A DNA stretch of 64,000 nucleotides from Propioniciclava flava (lineage in GTDB: Bacteria; Actinomycetota; Actinomycetes; Propionibacteriales; Propionibacteriaceae). Under the pieces are notes generated by a model. That model was not told the DNA's origin. It saw nothing but the letters and a program-made list of their open reading frames with translations, and ran no database searches. The stretch spans positions 62,001-126,000 of the forward strand of contig NZ_PPCV01000007.1 of NCBI RefSeq assembly GCF_004126535.1, in the 5' to 3' direction. How positions within the stretch are numbered: position 1 is the stretch's first letter; the number at the start of each line of letters is the position of its first letter. A program made the position numbers and the translations under genes. Positions 52,330-61,900 of the stretch are shown here, one piece after another.

Positions 52330-53907
52330 TCACAGCATCAGGTTCTGCGCGACGCGCGCCCAGGGCACCCCGCCGCGCAGGAGCATCACGGCCAGGGCAC
52401 GGTCGATCGTGTGCTCGTAGGGGTAGTACGTCGTGGCTGGCGTGGGGGTGGCGCTCACGTGGGTACCGCTGTGCAACGTGACCTCCAACGACCTGACGCG
52501 TTCCGCGTCCGCCAGATCCCTGCCGGGGAACCACTGGGCTCCGGGGCGGGCCCACAGGTCACCTCGGGGTGTCCGTGCGGCGTACCGGGCCCGCGAAAGG
52601 GGGCCGTGTGCCGGGTCGACGGGCAGGACGAGCAGGCCGTCTGCGAAGACGTGAACGTCGATGATGGTCGCCTCAGCGGGTGCACCGGTCGCCTCCAGGT
52701 GGCAGAGGGCGCCCAGGTAGGCGTCACCCAGGTTCGGTGTGAGCACGGCATCGAGGTCGCCGCCCGCGTCGAGGAGGAAGGCCGTCAAGGGGGCGGCGGA
52801 ACCCTGGGCCTGTGCTGCCGCGATGGCGGCATCCAGCCCTTCAGGCTCGTCCCAGATCACGAAGAAGTCTCCTCGGGCGGCCCAGTCGATCCCCGTGACC
52901 GACGCACCGAGTGCGGCGTAGGCGGCGACCCGAAGATCCCGCGCCGCGGGCAGTTCCTCACGATCGAGGAGAGAGCGTGGTGTTGGCGTCTCGCCCTCCA
53001 CGAGGGACTCGGTGAGGTTGTTCCACCTCTGTGAAGGCGCCGCCAGCGCCGCGACGTCAGACCAGTCGGTGAGGGGAAAGGCGGGGGCGAAGAATCCCTC
53101 CTCGAGGCCGAGAAGTGACTGTTCCGCGCGTGCGAGCAGCGAGGACGCGGGGGCCGCCGGTAAGGGCAGCTGGGTCCGCGCGGTGGCGAGGTGTCGTACT
53201 GCCTCGGAGAGCGGCGCTCGCGCGCGAGCCTCATCGAACAAGGTGAGGTACGGAGGCAGATCGATGCCCCGGGCCGCCTCGGCCATGATCGCCAGGCCAC
53301 GGTCCAGGTCCTCGGGGGAGGCCACTCGTGCGGACGCGGCGCGGCCGCGGGCGTCGGGGGAACCCTCACCCCGTGAGGCGACGGCCGCGTAGAGCTGTGC
53401 CTGCCACCGGGCCAGCGCTCCACCGGTCGTGGCACGGTGGTCCAGCCCCGTCTGGACGCGGTCCTTCGCGGACCTGGACATCTCGAAGGCGAGGAGCGCT
53501 ACGAACTGATCGACGCTGAGGAGCGTCAGCAGGGGGTGCCCCGCCACGAGGGCGTGTGGGTCGGCGTGCGACCGGTGGAGAGTGAACCCTTGATCCACCC
53601 ACAGTGTTGTGGGGGCTGGCTGGCGAGCGGCCAGCGCGGCCCGGTGCAGTGCGTCCCTCACCCGGGGATGTTCGGCCAGGTCAAGCTCGACGGCGTCGAT
53701 GTGGCTGGGAGAGACAGAAGATGCCAAGCGTGGGCGGGTCGCCAGCGCCGCCGCTATCCCTGTCGCCACCAGCACGACGCCCAGCACGGGGTTTCGTGCC
53801 CCGAACGCGGCGAGCCCGCAGGCGACCGGAATCAGGAAGGCGAGGGCTGGCAGGCACCAGAGCGCGACGATACCGAGCCGGTTTCCGCCAAGGGCCGTGG
53901 GGCGCAT
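52330..53907 (-). CDS. Membrane-anchored protein with a degenerate M48-like domain
   Basis: This 525-residue protein starts with two hydrophobic segments (IVALWCLPALAFLIPVACGL, then NPVLGVVLVATGIAAALAT). Residues 99-145 (TTLWVDQGFTLHRSHA through LLTLLSVDQFVALLAFEMS) resemble the M48/HtpX protease region in which LL-S-x-D/E-x-L-x-A-V-L-A-H-E-L-G-H is usual, but HELGH is replaced by FEMSR, so zinc hydrolysis is not expected. A long unassigned C-terminal region follows. It may be a scaffold or inactive homolog. Function unknown. Confidence 0.6.
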   Translation of the reverse strand: MRPTALGGNRLGIVALWCLPALAFLIPVACGLAAFGARNPVLGVVLVATGIAAALATRPRLASSVSPSHIDAVELDLAEHPRVRDALHRAALAARQPAPTTLWVDQGFTLHRSHADPHALVAGHPLLTLLSVDQFVALLAFEMSRSAKDRVQTGLDHRATTGGALARWQAQLYAAVASRGEGSPDARGRAASARVASPEDLDRGLAIMAEAARGIDLPPYLTLFDEARARAPLSEAVRHLATARTQLPLPAAPASSLLARAEQSLLGLEEGFFAPAFPLTDWSDVAALAAPSQRWNNLTESLVEGETPTPRSLLDREELPAARDLRVAAYAALGASVTGIDWAARGDFFVIWDEPEGLDAAIAAAQAQGSAAPLTAFLLDAGGDLDAVLTPNLGDAYLGALCHLEATGAPAEATIIDVHVFADGLLVLPVDPAHGPLSRARYAARTPRGDLWARPGAQWFPGRDLADAERVRSLEVTLHSGTHVSATPTPATTYYPYEHTIDRALAVMLLRGGVPWARVAQNLML

Positions 53908-55215: not shown

Positions 55216-55620
55216 TCATCCCATGGGCGGGATGCTTCGGACGGCCATCACTCCCAGCCAGAAGCCCAGTAGGCAGGCGATCATCATCGCCAGGGGGACC
55301 GCGACGACGCGGGCCCAGCGGCGGGCGCGCACATCCCGGGCCGTCTCCAGGGATGCGGCCGAGAAGGTCGTGAACCCGCCCAGCAGGCCGGTGGTCACGA
55401 CAGGTTGCGCCTCCATCGACCCGGTCGCGGCCACGACCGCGCCCATGACGACAGCGCCGACGACGTTGACGACAAAGGTGCCACTCACCGTGGGGATGAT
55501 CTCCTCATCGGAAGGGACAGATCGCCGCCGCGCCCGCAAGAAGGCTTCGTGACCCAGCACGAGAAGGTAGCGCAGGACCGATCCGACGCCACCGGCGAGC
55601 ATCACCCACAGCCAGGTCAC
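55216..55620 (-). CDS. crcB: Fluoride channel CrcB/Fluc, second subunit
   Basis: This 134-residue, four-TM protein has AGGVGSVLRYLL, the conserved Asn in TFVVNVVGAVVMG, and the TTGLLGGFTTFSAASLE motif. It forms a dual-topology fluoride channel with the neighbouring subunit. GTG 55620 overlaps the upstream crcB stop by 4 bp. Confidence 0.92.
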   Translation of the reverse strand: MTWLWVMLAGGVGSVLRYLLVLGHEAFLRARRRSVPSDEEIIPTVSGTFVVNVVGAVVMGAVVAATGSMEAQPVVTTGLLGGFTTFSAASLETARDVRARRWARVVAVPLAMMIACLLGFWLGVMAVRSIPPMG

Positions 55621-56033
55621 TGCTGCTCCTGGGCGGGCCACAGGCGGACACCGAGAGCGATGCCGGCGCACGCCAAAAGGATCCCGGCAACCACCTGCCC
55701 GAGGACGAACCACACCAACCAGGAGGTCACAGGATCGGCGATGGCCGAGGCTGCACCGGCGATGTCGACGGTGAAAGCGCTGTAGGTGGTGAATCCGCCC
55801 AGGACGCCGGTGCCCAGCAGGAGACGCCAGTGCTCGACGTCAAGGCCGCGGCTGTCGCGGCGGCCCCACGGAACCGTCATCACGAGTCCCATGAGGAACG
55901 CGCCGATGAGGTTAGCCAGGAAGACCGACCAGTTCGGCGGGACGCCCGGGATGTGGGGGATCGCCACGCCCAGGAGATACCGGGCGAGCGTTCCCACGGC
56001 CCCGCCGACGAAGACCAGCAGGAGCTTGATCAT
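55617..56033 (-). CDS. crcB: Fluoride channel CrcB/Fluc, first subunit
   Basis: This 138-residue, four-TM protein has GGAVGTLARYLLG, the Asn in SVFLANLIGAFLMG and the GTGVLGGFTTYSAFTVD motif. Two different crcB genes in tandem usually make a heterodimeric channel with opposite orientations. ATG 56033 is preferred; GTG 56042 gives an overlap with the preceding stop. Confidence 0.92.
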   Translation of the reverse strand: MIKLLLVFVGGAVGTLARYLLGVAIPHIPGVPPNWSVFLANLIGAFLMGLVMTVPWGRRDSRGLDVEHWRLLLGTGVLGGFTTYSAFTVDIAGAASAIADPVTSWLVWFVLGQVVAGILLACAGIALGVRLWPAQEQQ

Positions 56034-56038
56034 GGTGG

Positions 56039-57745
56039 TCACTCGAGGTTGTCGAACAGGGTCAGGGGTGCATCGATGACCTTGCCGGGGTTGAGGTGTG
56101 CGCCCGGATCGGCCGCATCGAACAGGGAACGCATGAGGGCGACGCCTTCGGTGGAAACCACCTGCTCCATCCAGGGGGCGTGCTCCATCCCGACGCCGTG
56201 ATGATGCGACAACGTCCCCCCGGCGTCCACGAACGCCTGCTGGATGGCGGTCTTCACCAGGGCGTACTCGGCGTCGGGCTTCTCCCCGGCCTTGAACGCG
56301 AACGTGAAGTACAGGCAGGCGCCCGCATGGTAGGAGTGCGACAGGTGGCTCATGATCCAGCCCTTGCGGCCGAGTTGAGCGAAGGCCTTCTCGGCGGCCG
56401 CGTACACGGCACGATGGACGCCGTTGAGCTTCGACCAGGGGGCTGCGGTCTCGGAAACGTCCCCCATCACGTCCTGTTCCAAGAGGAAGTCGCGCAGGTA
56501 GGGAGTGTCGAACTTCTTCTGGTCGTACAACGCGCCGGGCCCGGTGCCCAGGGAGAGGGCGCCGTGACGGCGGGCGATCGCGTCGACGGCCTTGCGGCGG
56601 GCGGCCACATCAGCGGCGAGGCCCTCGAAGCACACGTAGCTGATGCACATCTGGTCGGTGTTCCAGCCACGACGCCGCATCACCGCCCACAACCCCGCCT
56701 GCGCTTTGCCTTCTAGCTTCTTCTTCAGCGTGGTGGCCGCCTTCTGTGTCGCCAGGGAGAAACCCGTCTCGTTGCCGTCGGAGATGCGCACGAACGTGGT
56801 GGGAACCTCGTCGGCGGCGATCTGCCGGATCGCGGCGACCGCCGACTTCCATTCGGGGTACATGTAGGCGACGACCACGCGCTCGGCGGGGAGGCGGTGT
56901 ACCTGAACCCACAACTCGGTGATGACGCCGAGGCGCCCCTCCGAGCCGATGAACATCTCACGCAGCGAGGGCCCCGTCGACTCGCTGGGCACCGGACGCA
57001 GCGTCACTGTGCCCGCCGGACGCACCACCGTCATGCCGCGCACGATGCCTGCGATGTCGCCGTACTTGTCCGACTGCATGCCCGACGAGCGGGTGGCAGC
57101 CCAGCCGCCGACCGTGGAGTGGGTGAACGAGTCGGGCATGTGGCCCAGCGTCCAGCCGCGGTCGTTGAGGGCCTCCTCCAGCGCCGGACCTTGCATGCCA
57201 CCCCCGACGCGGGCCAGGCCGGAGTCCTCGTCGAGTTCACGCAGCCCCGACAGCAGGCCGGTGTCCAGCGAGATGATCGGGCGCTTCTCGGCCGGGTCGA
57301 GTTGCAGCGAGCGAGCGATGTTCGTGCCGCCGCCATAAGGCACGACGACGGCGTCGTGCTCCACCGCCGCCGCCAGCACCCCGGCGACTTCGGTATCCGT
57401 GGCCGGGTAGACGACGACCTCGGGGAGACGGCCGTAGTCGCCGCGGCTGACGTGCAGCAGTTCGGTGACCGAACTGCCATGCCCGTGGACGACCCGCTCG
57501 TGGGGATCGACGCTGACCTGATCGGGTGAGGTCACGGCCACCAGGGCGGCGGCGAGGTCGTCGGGCAGCGTCGAGTCCGGCACGGTGTCCGGGTCGAAGG
57601 CGATGGTGTCGATCTTGCGCGGACGCAGGTCGATGTCGAGCGCCTTCTTCACAAACGGCGCGAACTGGGGCTTGTTCAGGTAGTTGAAGAACACGCCCTC
57701 CTCGCCCCAGCCCCACCACTTCATGTGCTTGACGTCGGGTGTCAT
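56039..57745 (-). CDS. Alkyldihydroxyacetonephosphate-synthase-like FAD flavoprotein
   Basis: This 568-residue VAO-type flavoprotein begins MKWWGWG like the AGPS group, has FAD-binding motifs VVVPYGGGTNIARSL and HSTVGGWAATRSSGMQSDKY, the conserved active-site Tyr in LSHSYHAGACLYFTFAF, and the AGPS histidine triad HHHGVGMEH (residues 524-532). AGPS exchanges the acyl chain of acyl-DHAP for a fatty alcohol to form the ether bond. With an SDR overlapped by 4 bp and a fatty-acyl reductase gene opposite, ether-lipid synthesis is likely. Alternative: another D-lactate- or glycolate-type oxidase. Confidence 0.8.
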   Translation of the reverse strand: MTPDVKHMKWWGWGEEGVFFNYLNKPQFAPFVKKALDIDLRPRKIDTIAFDPDTVPDSTLPDDLAAALVAVTSPDQVSVDPHERVVHGHGSSVTELLHVSRGDYGRLPEVVVYPATDTEVAGVLAAAVEHDAVVVPYGGGTNIARSLQLDPAEKRPIISLDTGLLSGLRELDEDSGLARVGGGMQGPALEEALNDRGWTLGHMPDSFTHSTVGGWAATRSSGMQSDKYGDIAGIVRGMTVVRPAGTVTLRPVPSESTGPSLREMFIGSEGRLGVITELWVQVHRLPAERVVVAYMYPEWKSAVAAIRQIAADEVPTTFVRISDGNETGFSLATQKAATTLKKKLEGKAQAGLWAVMRRRGWNTDQMCISYVCFEGLAADVAARRKAVDAIARRHGALSLGTGPGALYDQKKFDTPYLRDFLLEQDVMGDVSETAAPWSKLNGVHRAVYAAAEKAFAQLGRKGWIMSHLSHSYHAGACLYFTFAFKAGEKPDAEYALVKTAIQQAFVDAGGTLSHHHGVGMEHAPWMEQVVSTEGVALMRSLFDAADPGAHLNPGKVIDAPLTLFDNLE

Positions 57746-58533
57746 GCCCGGTCTCCTTCCGATGCGGGACGCCCCGTGGCGCGCCCAGAGATTTTCGACG
57801 AGATGAAACGCATCAGCCCACCTGGCAACAGGCGCAAGGCGGTGGCGAGGATCTTGTAGCGCAGCGACGGTACCGAGATGACGACGCCCCGTGCCGCGTC
57901 CCGCAGCGCCTCGGTGGCGATCTGGTCGGCGCTGAGCCACAACACCGCGGGAACCTTGGATCGTTTCGCGCCTCCCTGAGCGTGAAACGAGGTGCGGACC
58001 CAGCCGGGCAGGACGGCCGTCACCGTGACCCCAGTGCCAGCTAGTTCGTTGGCCAGGACTTCGGAGGTGGCCAGCGTGTACGCCTTCAGCGCCGAGTAGG
58101 AATCCTGACGGGTCAGGGCCGAGACGGAAGCGACTGTGATGATCGTGCCATGCCCGCGGGCGACCAGGGACGGCGCGATCGCCGCAGCCAGGACGCGGGG
58201 GGTTCGGGCCATGGCCTCATAGGCGCGATCAGCGAGCGCTTCGTCGCCGCCGACCAGCGGCGTCTTCAGCGAGAACCCCGCATTGTTGATGAGGATGTCG
58301 ACATCGCCGGTGCGCAGACGCGCCGCGACCCGGTCCACGTCGGCGCGGTCGCTCAGGTCGGCGGCGAGCGTCTCCACGCTCACCCCGAAGGCCGAGGCAA
58401 GGTCAGCCGACACCGTGGCGAGTCGGTCGTGATCACGAGCCACCACGATGAGGGGATGGCCTTGTCTGGCCAGCGCTCGGGCGAAGGCGAGCCCGATGCC
58501 GGAGGTGCCACCGGTGATGAGCGCTGCCCGCAT
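57742..58533 (-). CDS. Short-chain dehydrogenase/reductase
   Basis: This 263-residue SDR has TGGTSGIGLAFARAL (cofactor loop), NNAGFSL and the catalytic YSALK within SRQDSYSALKAYTL-type context (Tyr149, Lys153). Its ATG is 68 bases from the divergent FAR-HAD gene, and its stop overlaps the AGPS-like ATG. In an ether-lipid route it could reduce alkyl- or acyl-DHAP to the glycerol-3-phosphate form; this is inferred from location. Confidence 0.83.
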   Translation of the reverse strand: MRAALITGGTSGIGLAFARALARQGHPLIVVARDHDRLATVSADLASAFGVSVETLAADLSDRADVDRVAARLRTGDVDILINNAGFSLKTPLVGGDEALADRAYEAMARTPRVLAAAIAPSLVARGHGTIITVASVSALTRQDSYSALKAYTLATSEVLANELAGTGVTVTAVLPGWVRTSFHAQGGAKRSKVPAVLWLSADQIATEALRDAARGVVISVPSLRYKILATALRLLPGGLMRFISSKISGRATGRPASEGDRA

Positions 58534-58601
58534 GGGAGGTCACGCTACATTACGCTCCTCGTGCCGAGGCACCCCCAAGGTGTCGCTGGAAGGAGCCCCC
58601 C

Positions 58602-60827
58602 ATGCCCAACCAACCTGTCAATGTCCTGCTCACCGGTGTGACCGGCTTTCTGGGCCAGGCCGTCTTGGAGCGGCTGCTGTCCTCCACGGACGCGACGATC
58701 ACGACCGTGATCCGCCCCAAAGGCAGCCAAACCGGGCGCGCACGGCTCGATCGCCTGCTGCGCAAGCCCGTATTCGCGTCCTGGCGGCGTGCCGTCGGTG
58801 ACGCGGAGGCCCAACGGATCTTCGCTGAGCGCACGGCCGTCATCGAGGGTGATCTCTCGACGCTGGAGCGGATCGATGTCCCCGTGGACGTGGTGGTGCA
58901 CTCGGCCTCCACGGTGTCCTTCGACGCACCGATCGACGAGGCGTTCGCCAACAACGTCGGTGGCCCGCAGGCCCTGTACGGCGCGCTGTCCGCGTCCGGT
59001 CTCGACCCGCACGTCATCCACGTCTCCACCTGCTACGTGGGCGGAATCGCGAAGGGGCTGCGTCCCGAAGCGTCGGTTGACCACGATGTGGACTGGCGTG
59101 CTGAACTCCAAGCTGCGCGGGTGGCTCGCGCGGAGGCCGAGGCCGCGTCCCGGACCCCCGAAATGTTGCAGACGTTCATCGACCAGGCCACCGCCGGGCA
59201 CGGCAAGGAGGGCCCCAAGACGGTCGCCCGCGCCTCAGAGCAGGCCCGCGTCGACTGGATCACGGCCCGCATGGTCGAGTTGGGCCGCACTCGCGCCCGG
59301 TCCTTGGGGTGGACCGACGTCTACACCTTCAGCAAGGCGATGGGGGAGCGGGTCGCGGAACAGGAATGGGCGGGAAAGGGGCATCGCCTCTCCATCGTGC
59401 GTCCCTCCATCATCGAGTCGGCACTGCGGCACCCGGTTCCGGGATGGATCGACGGTTTCAAGGTCGCCGACCCGCTGATCATGGCCTACGCGAAGGGGCA
59501 CCTGCCGGAGTTCCCCGGCCTGCCCGACTCCGTACTGGACGTCATCCCCGTCGACTACGTCGTGAACGTGGTGCTCGCGTTGGCGAGGCTGGGGCACCAA
59601 GGGCCCGAGGCGTCGGACGCCGGGTATTACCAGGTCTGCTCGGGGGCCTCGAACCCGCTGCCGTTCCACCGGATGTACGGCGAGGTGCGCACCTTCTTCT
59701 TGCAGCATCCTCTGCAGGACGACAAGGGGCATCCCATCGTCGTTCCCACCTGGCGCTTCCCCGCGAACAATGCCGCAGAGCGCTCGCTGCGCTTCAAGGA
59801 GCGCCTCTCTGCGCTCGGGTCCCGGATCGGCGCGGCGCTGCCGTCCAGCCCGCTCACCCAGCGGTGGACGAGCACCTTGAACCGCATGGAACGCGGCCTG
59901 GGTTCGTTACGGAACTACGTGGATCTCTACCAGAGCTACACCCGTACCGAGATGCTGTTCGACGACCAGCAGACGCGCGCACTGGGGGCGAAACTGCCCG
60001 CAGGCACCCCCGAGGATGAGACCTTCGACATCCGCGACATCGACTGGACCCACTACTGGCAAGACGTCCACCTGCCTGCGATGACGTCGCTGGCGAAGGT
60101 TCACGCCCGGGCGTCCAGCGCGCGCAAGGCGTCCCGCTCGAAGGCGCGGCCCCTGGAGTCGGGCACCGACGTGCTTGCGGTGTTCGATCTAGAGGGCACC
60201 GTGTTGCCCAGTTCCTTGCTCACCCAATACCTGTCGATCATGCGGTTCATCCGGCCGCTGGGGCAGTTCCCGAGCGAACTGGTCGACCTGATCGGCAAGA
60301 CGAACGTGTACCTCAAGGCAGAGCGGCGCGATCGCGGCGAGTTCGTCCGCGCGTTCAGCCGCCGCTATGCGGGCACGCGCGTCACCGACATCGAGCGCGC
60401 CGTCGACGGGGCCTGGGGCGAGGCGCTGATGCGCTCGCTGCGTCCGGGGGCGCTCGCGCGGATTGAGCAGCATCGTGCGGCCGGGCATCGCACCGTCTTG
60501 GTGACCGGATCCCTCGATCTCCTGGCAGCCCCGCTGGCACCGCTGTTCGAGGACGTGATCGCGTCGAGCATGGACGTGGAGGACGGCCGCCTCACCGGCT
60601 ATCTGGCCACCCCGCCCATGGTGGACGAGGCCCGTGCCCAATGGTTGAAGGACTACGCCGACAAGCATGGCATCGACCTCACTCGGTCTCACGGCTACGG
60701 CGACTCCGTCGCGGATGTGAGCTGGCTGCGGCTCGTGGGGCGTCCGGTTGCGGTCAACCCGGACCTGCCGCTGTACCGGGTGGCGAGCCGCCAATACTGG
60801 CCCATCGAGGATTGGAAGCGCAGCTAG
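58602..60827 (+). CDS. Fatty-acyl-CoA-reductase-like domain fused to a HAD-IB hydrolase domain
   Basis: This 741-residue fusion starts with a male-sterility/NAD-binding-4 domain: LLTGVTGFLGQAVLERLL (NADPH loop), VVVHSASTVSFDAP, HVSTCYVGG and the YTFSK catalytic pair (YxxxK). Such domains reduce acyl-CoA or acyl-ACP to aldehyde or alcohol. From about residue 524 a HAD-IB domain follows (AVFDLEGTVLPSSLL, LVTGSLDLLAAPLAPLF, HGYGDSVADVSWL). Its motif I is D-x-E instead of D-x-D (Asp529, Glu531). The 190 bases after the stop hold nothing I recognise. GGAAGGAG precedes ATG 58602. Confidence 0.83.
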   Translation: MPNQPVNVLLTGVTGFLGQAVLERLLSSTDATITTVIRPKGSQTGRARLDRLLRKPVFASWRRAVGDAEAQRIFAERTAVIEGDLSTLERIDVPVDVVVHSASTVSFDAPIDEAFANNVGGPQALYGALSASGLDPHVIHVSTCYVGGIAKGLRPEASVDHDVDWRAELQAARVARAEAEAASRTPEMLQTFIDQATAGHGKEGPKTVARASEQARVDWITARMVELGRTRARSLGWTDVYTFSKAMGERVAEQEWAGKGHRLSIVRPSIIESALRHPVPGWIDGFKVADPLIMAYAKGHLPEFPGLPDSVLDVIPVDYVVNVVLALARLGHQGPEASDAGYYQVCSGASNPLPFHRMYGEVRTFFLQHPLQDDKGHPIVVPTWRFPANNAAERSLRFKERLSALGSRIGAALPSSPLTQRWTSTLNRMERGLGSLRNYVDLYQSYTRTEMLFDDQQTRALGAKLPAGTPEDETFDIRDIDWTHYWQDVHLPAMTSLAKVHARASSARKASRSKARPLESGTDVLAVFDLEGTVLPSSLLTQYLSIMRFIRPLGQFPSELVDLIGKTNVYLKAERRDRGEFVRAFSRRYAGTRVTDIERAVDGAWGEALMRSLRPGALARIEQHRAAGHRTVLVTGSLDLLAAPLAPLFEDVIASSMDVEDGRLTGYLATPPMVDEARAQWLKDYADKHGIDLTRSHGYGDSVADVSWLRLVGRPVAVNPDLPLYRVASRQYWPIEDWKRS

Positions 60828-61015
60828 GCAGGTCCTTGCTGACACCGGGGGAAGGGTGCCTCGTGCGCGCGGTGACGCGAGTGCGAGGTGCCGCCCGGGG
60901 CTCGGCGGTCACCGTGTCGCGGAGGGGTGCCCGTGAAGGGGGGGCGACTAGAGCGATCGTTCCAGTGGGTGGGCACGGGCTGCGATTCCAGCTGCGGACA
61001 TGTTTACCTTGAGGC

Positions 61016-61900
61016 ATGGCCCGCTTACGTCAGATCACCGATGCGACGCTGCTGGCTCACGTCAACAAGCTGGGCGAGGAGCATCCCCCGATCCGGATGG
61101 ATTCGGTCGACTTCACTGTGAACAACCCCGATGTCTTGCGGACGCGCTTCGCGGGCGTCCTCGACTACCTGGCGCGGGTCGAACTCGAGGTCGAGCGCAA
61201 TGTGCTCGAACTGCTGACGATCATGCCCAACCCGTCCGAGGCGGACAAAGTGTTCTACTCCGACGTCTGGTACGACCAGGAGATCGCCCACGGCCAGATC
61301 CTCGACGAGCTGAAACGGCGCATCGACCTGCCCGAGGCCGAACCCCTCCTGCAGGTCGGGTTCGCGGTGCAAGCCCTGGGCGCGCTCGCGAAGTGGGAGC
61401 CCATCCAAGACGTCGCGCGCACCATCTACTACTTCACGGGCGCCTCCACCGAACGCCAGGCCGTCTTGGCGTACAACGCCTTGTCGAGCCAGCTCGATGA
61501 GTGGGGCGAACTCGCCGTCCGCGACACGATCATCAATCAGATCAAACGCCAAGAGCCCGGCCACTTCGCCTTCTACCGCATGAGTGCCGAAAAGATCACC
61601 ACCGACGGGACGCTCAGGCCCTGGCAGCTGTACTTGGCCCGCGTCCTGCGCGAACACTCCTACGAACTCGTGGGGACCCACCACGATCCGCAGCACCAGG
61701 CGACGATGGGCGAGGTGATCGACGTGCTCGGCTTCAGCGGCCAACTGGAGGTGTTCGCCAAGGAGATCGGCCGCCTGGAAGCGAAGCTCCTGTGGGCGAA
61801 CCGTCAGGGGATGGAGTTCCCGCCCTACGTCTTGCGCGCCCTGCGGGAAAGCGTCGAGATGTACCGCGAGCAGGGATCCTTTGCCGCCCGGCTGTCCTGA
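61016..61900 (+). CDS. Ferritin-like diiron carboxylate protein
   Basis: This 294-residue all-helical protein has two ExxH motifs, Glu89-His92 (DQEIAHGQIL) and Glu180-His183 (RQEPGHFAFY), plus Glu residues at 56-60 and Glu146 (STERQAV), the spacing of a ferritin-like diiron centre as in acyl-ACP desaturases. No TM segment is present. Homologs are sometimes misnamed 'GTP-binding protein LepA'; no GTPase motif is present here. Its location beyond the FAR gene suggests lipid desaturation or oxygenation (inference). GAGG precedes ATG 61016. Confidence 0.75.
   Translation: MARLRQITDATLLAHVNKLGEEHPPIRMDSVDFTVNNPDVLRTRFAGVLDYLARVELEVERNVLELLTIMPNPSEADKVFYSDVWYDQEIAHGQILDELKRRIDLPEAEPLLQVGFAVQALGALAKWEPIQDVARTIYYFTGASTERQAVLAYNALSSQLDEWGELAVRDTIINQIKRQEPGHFAFYRMSAEKITTDGTLRPWQLYLARVLREHSYELVGTHHDPQHQATMGEVIDVLGFSGQLEVFAKEIGRLEAKLLWANRQGMEFPPYVLRALRESVEMYREQGSFAARLS

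Follow-up and report, generated by a model that had tools for sequence, protein, structure and literature searches.

The closest described system to the locus reported here is the MXAN_1676-1674 operon of Myxococcus xanthus, which encodes an AGPS, a fusion of a fatty acyl reductase (FAR) with GNPAT, and an NAD-dependent epimerase/dehydratase (PMC9131029). We analyzed a window of 64,000 nucleotides, meaning the whole stretch of DNA under study, from Propioniciclava flava (contig NZ_PPCV01000007.1, positions 62,001 to 126,000). It carries a cluster of four genes for an AGPS-like flavoprotein, a short-chain dehydrogenase/reductase (SDR), a FAR fused to a HAD domain (FAR-HAD) and a soluble diiron-type protein. 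The cluster is predicted to make sn-1 ether lipids by the dihydroxyacetone phosphate (DHAP) route, a reading to which we assign a probability of roughly 0.83. As described in the available part of that source, the M. xanthus operon, in a host that is likewise aerobic, also places an AGPS homologue beside a reductase, a FAR domain and an acyltransferase of the GNPAT type. However, its FAR is fused to the acyltransferase, whereas the actinobacterial FAR carries a HAD domain and the acyltransferase has a gene of its own.

Other described systems share parts of this design. The mammalian peroxisomal and endoplasmic reticulum pathway (FAR1, GNPAT, AGPS, PexRAP, PEDS1) covers these four early activities too, as judged by homology or family membership (PMC9131029), whereas the bacterial genes are clustered and include the FAR-HAD fusion. 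The vinyl ether is made by CarF in M. xanthus, while the actinobacterial cluster has soluble diiron proteins and no match to PF10520, the CarF/PEDS1 profile, which went unmatched in the controls too. Like the cluster, the myxobacterial elbA-E operon combines FAR-like and acyltransferase domains with reductases and a HAD protein, ElbB, but it is described without an AGPS, and its single multidomain protein ElbD includes ACS and ACP (PMC9131029). Clostridial PlsA/PlsR and Ger, which reduce acyl to ether linkages anaerobically, yield the same class of end product with unrelated enzymes, and PlsA/PlsR act on lipids that are already complete, at their sn-1 acyl chain. Agps homologues were noted earlier in metagenome-assembled genomes of Actinobacteria, without this gene set in the text available (PMC11868695). 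What sets the actinobacterial cluster apart from these systems is the fusion of FAR to HAD, an acyltransferase encoded separately, and the diiron partners. An earlier note on this DNA knew of no such set described for actinomycetes, and no description was found in the open-access literature, among the matches listed, with most subscription journals outside the search.

The flavoprotein groups with AGPS

The protein encoded at 56039 contains the HHHG motif and the tyrosine that the earlier note had reported for it. Pfam recovered FAD_binding_4 (4e-30) and FAD-oxidase_C (6.1e-42). In a phmmer search of the PDB, the AGPS chains 2uuu (1.4e-94; 321 bits) and 4bby (3.8e-78; 267 bits) aligned over about 500 residues, compared with about 260 residues for D-lactate dehydrogenase (3e-20; 75 bits). 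We take these chains to be the Dictyostelium and guinea pig (Cavia) enzymes, respectively. Residues that matter for function in guinea-pig AGPS are Tyr578, Arg419, Arg515, His300, Asp303 and the HHH loop. The window protein maps onto the Cavia enzyme as H202=H300, D205=D303, R320=R419, R418=R515, Y479=Y578 and H514-516=H615-617, and the mapped residues were invariant in all 62 aligned sequences.

A tree of 55 rows placed 35 actinobacterial rows, including the window protein, in one clade (support 100/99) that joins two eukaryotic AGPS rows (98/93), although the program flagged long branches, those of the eukaryotic rows included. Six GlcD/LDH-like rows fell outside, and 12 further actinobacterial rows made up another AGPS-like clade, separate from the first (33-40% identity to the window protein). 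A grouping with glycolate or lactate oxidases, which the earlier note had named as an outcome that would refute its ether-lipid reading, was thus not observed. NCBIfam GlcD was the best model for the protein, yet its 116.9 bits lie far under the cut-off of 567.9; this score, the stronger match to the AGPS chains and the tree led us to reject a lactate/glycolate oxidase identity. In the same tree, the four Kocuria rows fall within those of the window's genus (an 11-row set at 100/100), a pattern suggestive of horizontal transfer linking Micrococcaceae and the window's family.

The gene set travels with the AGPS clade

We sought to characterize the neighborhoods of this clade in named genomes, where 371 relatives were found and the best 80 loci examined; the counts consequently lean toward close relatives, and some loci end at contig ends. 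When the window proteins served as queries, 78 of the 80 loci had the SDR, 73 had FAR and 3 had the window-type diiron protein. Profile searches returned the same numbers for these three and added a PlsC-type acyltransferase, absent from the earlier note, in 75 loci, two diiron-type families that we call c2A and c2B in 54 and 55 loci, and TetR in 29. The acyltransferase lay on the AGPS strand in 75/75 cases and the SDR in 77/78, while FAR-HAD was opposite AGPS in 69/73 and the diiron genes followed the FAR-HAD strand in 55/55. The co-occurrence that the earlier note had proposed to survey is seen for the SDR and FAR-HAD.

The loci came from Kocuria, many Microbacteriaceae, Streptomycetaceae, Ruaniaceae, Jiangellaceae and Intrasporangiaceae, as well as Micromonosporaceae (L101, FAR-HAD not nearby) and one genome of Thermoleophilaceae (L113, acyltransferase only). 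Because the same gene set recurs in the loci of many actinobacterial families, the clustering exceeds chance. Among 14 control loci of the other AGPS-like clade, one of which (L210) extends only 1 kb on one side, diiron genes, FAR-HAD and the acyltransferase were absent throughout; weak matches were seen to the SDR profile in six (25-82 bits) and to the TetR profile in seven. The idea that the set generally surrounds any actinobacterial AGPS-like gene was rejected on these 0/14 control loci.

A census of 394 genomes of the class found this AGPS clade in 32, with a clear score gap. FAR-HAD (E<1e-130) was present in 60 genomes, including 30 of the 32 with AGPS, linked or not. Strong c2A matches (E<1e-100) occurred in 26 genomes, including 20/32 AGPS genomes; relaxing the threshold to E<1e-20 gave 37 genomes and still 20/32. 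In the window's family, the window-type diiron protein was found in 15/17 AGPS genomes versus 1/6 without AGPS (p 0.003; by genus p 0.09). Among 13 genomes of the window's genus, 11 contained AGPS and 10 the window-type protein, encoded directly after FAR-HAD in 7/10, beside AGPS in one (G011) and elsewhere in two (G003, G004).

Reductases and acyltransferase

The earlier note's fatty-acyl reductase fused to HAD was recovered as such, with NAD_binding_4 (3.7e-46) and HAD (PF12710; 1.3e-31) in one protein. Residues 7-498 matched the PDB fatty acyl-CoA reductase 7eoz (7.7e-44), and the GxxGxxG and YxxxK residues were kept in 52/52 relatives, while the C-terminal Sterile domain scored 27.1 bits, under its cut-off of 35.4. 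The HAD domain reached 104.8 bits with TIGR01490 (cut-off 98.3). HAD motif I is usually D-x-D; here (residues 529-533) it reads D-x-E in 48/52 relatives, and for this reason the domain may not be an ordinary phosphatase. A second FAR-HAD context was seen at L143, L145, L163 and L078, where its neighbors are an acyltransferase and a Lar_N protein resembling lactate racemase, and in some loci also an alcohol-dehydrogenase-like protein or c2A.

For the SDR, which the earlier note had suggested could reduce alkyl-DHAP, the fold (adh_short, 8.9e-35), the catalytic Y146 and K150 (47/47 relatives) and the association with the AGPS clade all stand. Its substrate is not inferable from sequence, because 219 NCBIfam families match and none of those listed reaches its cut-off.

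The acyltransferase gene is missing from the window locus, and an unlinked copy is located elsewhere in the window genome (G000:C26:25826-26467; PF01553, 1e-18), with HX4D and EGTR motifs. All eight congeners searched, the window genome included, carry at least one such homologue elsewhere (E 1e-56 to 7e-61). We propose this unlinked PlsC-type gene as a candidate DHAP acyltransferase; it is also possible that it acts as a lyso-PA acyltransferase. In 5/6 stretches read, the homologue adjoins a second SDR, in the vicinity of genes that by eye resemble those for acetate kinase and phosphotransacetylase. In the window genome this second SDR (within G000:C26 18000-34000, L195) is 49% identical to the window SDR, and it outscores the latter, 345 vs 304 bits, on an SDR profile built without window-genus loci.

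Diiron proteins

The earlier note's soluble diiron protein is supported by its residues and its homology. Residues E56/E58, E89xxH92, E146 and E180xxH183 were conserved in 20/20 sequences, and hhalign related the protein to the diiron family of the other loci, c2A (probability 94.8; E 5.4e-8; 192 columns). The assignment rests on this E..ExxH..E..ExxH pattern together with profile homology, since no Pfam (E<=1), NCBIfam or solved-structure family was matched beyond stray matches at E 0.005 to 0.9. PF10520 did not match the protein, and an AlphaFold2 model built from three sequences was poor (pLDDT 38).

The c2A proteins of relatives show the acyl-ACP desaturase (PF03405) fold and diiron ligands. 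Their closest folds by VIA-align were acyl-ACP desaturases, at only 12-19% identity in the listed rows, which include the stearoyl-ACP desaturase family (plant SAD, mycobacterial DesA2), and the two c2A proteins scanned scored 18.5 and 15.0 bits against PF03405, under the Pfam cut-off of 22.7. A degenerate c2A paralogue, c2B, is encoded on the opposite side of FAR-HAD (L043, L060, L078 and other loci), and the two possibly form an active/inactive pair. The c2A and c2B pair is found in many Micrococcales and Streptomycetaceae loci, while the window's family has the divergent type at 61016-61900.

Proposed pathway and competing explanations

The pathway reading draws on homology, residue conservation, gene linkage and co-occurrence, from which we infer every reaction. 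The PlsC-type acyltransferase, an AGPS neighbor in most of the relatives examined and unlinked in the window genome, would acylate DHAP, and FAR-HAD would reduce an acyl thioester to a fatty alcohol. The AGPS-like flavoenzyme would then exchange the acyl chain of acyl-DHAP for this alcohol, and the SDR would convert the resulting alkyl-DHAP to 1-alkyl-glycerol-3-phosphate, which would enter ordinary phospholipid synthesis. Finally, the soluble acyl-ACP-desaturase-like diiron protein would modify the chain, perhaps through a Δ1' desaturation that yields the vinyl ether; this is the weakest step, and we put it somewhat short of even odds. A further proposal is that a complete plasmalogen pathway evolved within the aerobic actinobacteria themselves, one in which the AGPS/DHAP route is combined with a soluble diiron Δ1' desaturase in place of CarF/PEDS1. 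The desaturase would be either active c2A with its degenerate partner c2B or the divergent 61016-61900 protein. We regard this proposal as tentative, and slightly less probable than the desaturation step as such.

Lipid records bear on this last step. Dimethyl acetals (DMAs) indicate plasmalogens (PMC7472656). They were reported at 17.0, 3.2 and 1.9% plus traces in Subtercola vilae DB165 (sum 22), with sums of 27, 29 and 21 in S. frigoramans, S. boreus and S. lobariae (PMC5945732). The S. vilae genome examined is that of strain DB165 itself (L093), while the S. boreus genomes are from strains other than the one measured. Since DMAs are present and neither a CarF nor a PlsA-type match was found, Subtercola would need another Δ1' desaturase. 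Anteiso-15:0 DMA was also described in 2020 from the aerobic Kineococcus rubinsiae, a result called surprising at first sight, and a common identification system had read it as C14:0 2OH (PMC7472656). Because routine fatty-acid typing misread a branched DMA in this way, plasmalogens may be under-reported in aerobic actinobacteria. Frondihabitans is reported without DMAs in the available text of the Subtercola source (PMC5945732), and its reported 14:0 2-OH might be a misnamed DMA.

The most serious competing explanation is that the pathway ends at saturated alkyl ethers and that the role of the diiron proteins lies elsewhere, for example in mid-chain acyl desaturation or in oxygenation of the chain before or after its reduction by FAR. 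This has a substantial, though less than even, chance of being correct. It is favored by the acyl-ACP desaturase folds closest to c2A and by the alkyl ethers reported for Cutibacterium and Propionibacterium propionicum, with plasmalogens not mentioned in the portion of the source available (PMC11237483), and the Subtercola DMAs stand against it. The distribution of the diiron genes weighs in its favor and against a role tied to AGPS. Strong c2A matches occur without this AGPS in 6/26 genomes, of which G128, G146, G375 and G437 have the c2B-c2A pair with neither AGPS nor FAR-HAD (E<1e-130), and G125 and G187 have c2A and FAR-HAD. Conversely, 12/32 AGPS genomes have no strong c2A; nine of these also have no window-type protein, and the other three, from the window's family, carry it. 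The window-type protein further occurs without this AGPS clade in 10 other-family genomes, comprising 6 of 16 searched (plus one weak match, 2.7e-4) and 4 of family f3.

Several additional points weigh against the ether-lipid reading or its vinyl-ether extension. The co-occurrence Fisher values (1e-15 to 6e-26) ignore phylogeny, and 17/32 AGPS genomes belong to one family. The profiles were built partly from the same loci that were later counted, and c2A sequences were chosen partly by an EE-x-WHGE motif. Agreia pratensis (L077) carries the full gene set although at most 4% DMA is reported for Agreia (PMC5945732). No ether lipid in this organism or genus was found among the literature matches listed. 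PF10520 matched 0/24 carrier genomes and 0/394 genomes, and this absence of CarF is weak evidence because the profile matched nowhere, controls included; true CarF homologues outside myxobacteria are reported only in Leptospira, in the text available (PMC9131029).

The window genome also encodes a PlsA/Ger-type protein of 1444 aa with BcrAD_BadFG and DUF2229 (G000:C19 397000-402500; L193:177-4511), from which an alkenyl ether in this organism could come. By Pfam, no protein of the window cluster is of this type, and a PlsA/Ger-type gene was not matched in the P. sinopodophylli genome searched. PF09989 was found in 2/24 carrier genomes, the window genome and Nigerium massiliense, and plsA/plsR are reported in some Propionibacteriales and other Actinobacteria (PMC9702350), which shows that members of this phylum can also take the anaerobic route. 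The window organism may have two ether routes, one anaerobic and one aerobic.

A less probable explanation, which we consider unlikely, is that FAR-HAD and the SDR chiefly make another product (a fatty alcohol, wax ester or secondary lipid), with AGPS as a side branch. Half of the FAR-HAD genomes (30/60) have no member of this AGPS clade, and FAR-HAD paralogues occur elsewhere with Lar_N, an acyltransferase and an alcohol dehydrogenase-like protein, or close to his-like genes (several of these assigned by eye). Against this, FAR-HAD is present in nearly all AGPS genomes (30/32), and the acyltransferase is on the AGPS strand in each of the 75 loci where it was found. That the flavoprotein is a 2-hydroxyacid (lactate/glycolate) dehydrogenase in an incidental neighborhood is highly improbable, its best model being GlcD but its AGPS matches, invariant AGPS residues and place in the tree all pointing away from it.

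Layout of the window locus

The four ORFs are intact at the coordinates in the table. The AGPS-like and SDR genes share 4 bases on the minus strand, and across the divergent gap FAR-HAD is followed by the diiron-like gene. The longest AGPS-like frame extends to 57940, while homologues align from residues 1-5 of the reading from the ATG at 57745.

Table. Features of the candidate ether-lipid cluster in the window.
Feature	Position	Strand	Description
AGPS-like FAD enzyme	56039..57745	-	568 aa; predicted acyl-DHAP + fatty alcohol -> alkyl-DHAP
SDR oxidoreductase	57742..58533	-	263 aa; candidate alkyl-DHAP reductase
Divergent intergenic region between two transcription units	58534..58601		68 bases
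FAR-HAD, fatty acyl reductase fused to HAD-IB domain	58602..60827	+	741 aa; candidate fatty alcohol source
HAD-IB domain inside FAR-HAD	60177..60731	+	residues 526-710; PF12710, TIGR01490
Divergent soluble diiron-type protein	61016..61900	+	294 aa; candidate O2-dependent lipid desaturase or oxygenase

Two overlapping CrcB-family genes (55216-56042) lie downstream of AGPS and probably encode a paired fluoride channel. Further along, a 525-aa ORF (52330-53907, minus strand) matched nothing in Pfam or NCBIfam at E<=0.001. The window genome comprises 3.0 Mb in 26 contigs.

Implications

With this cluster, aerobic actinobacteria can probably make ether-linked membrane lipids by a route like that of animals. 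It would explain the DMA marker of plasmalogens long known from some aerobic actinobacteria, Subtercola and Kineococcus among them, for which no named genes were found in the open-access literature, among the matches listed. If the diiron step is true, the enzyme forming the vinyl ether would be unrelated to both CarF/PEDS1 and PlsA/PlsR, and would represent a third way to the vinyl ether bond. As a concrete gene set, the cluster would allow the lipid biomarkers and the genomes of these bacteria to be read jointly.

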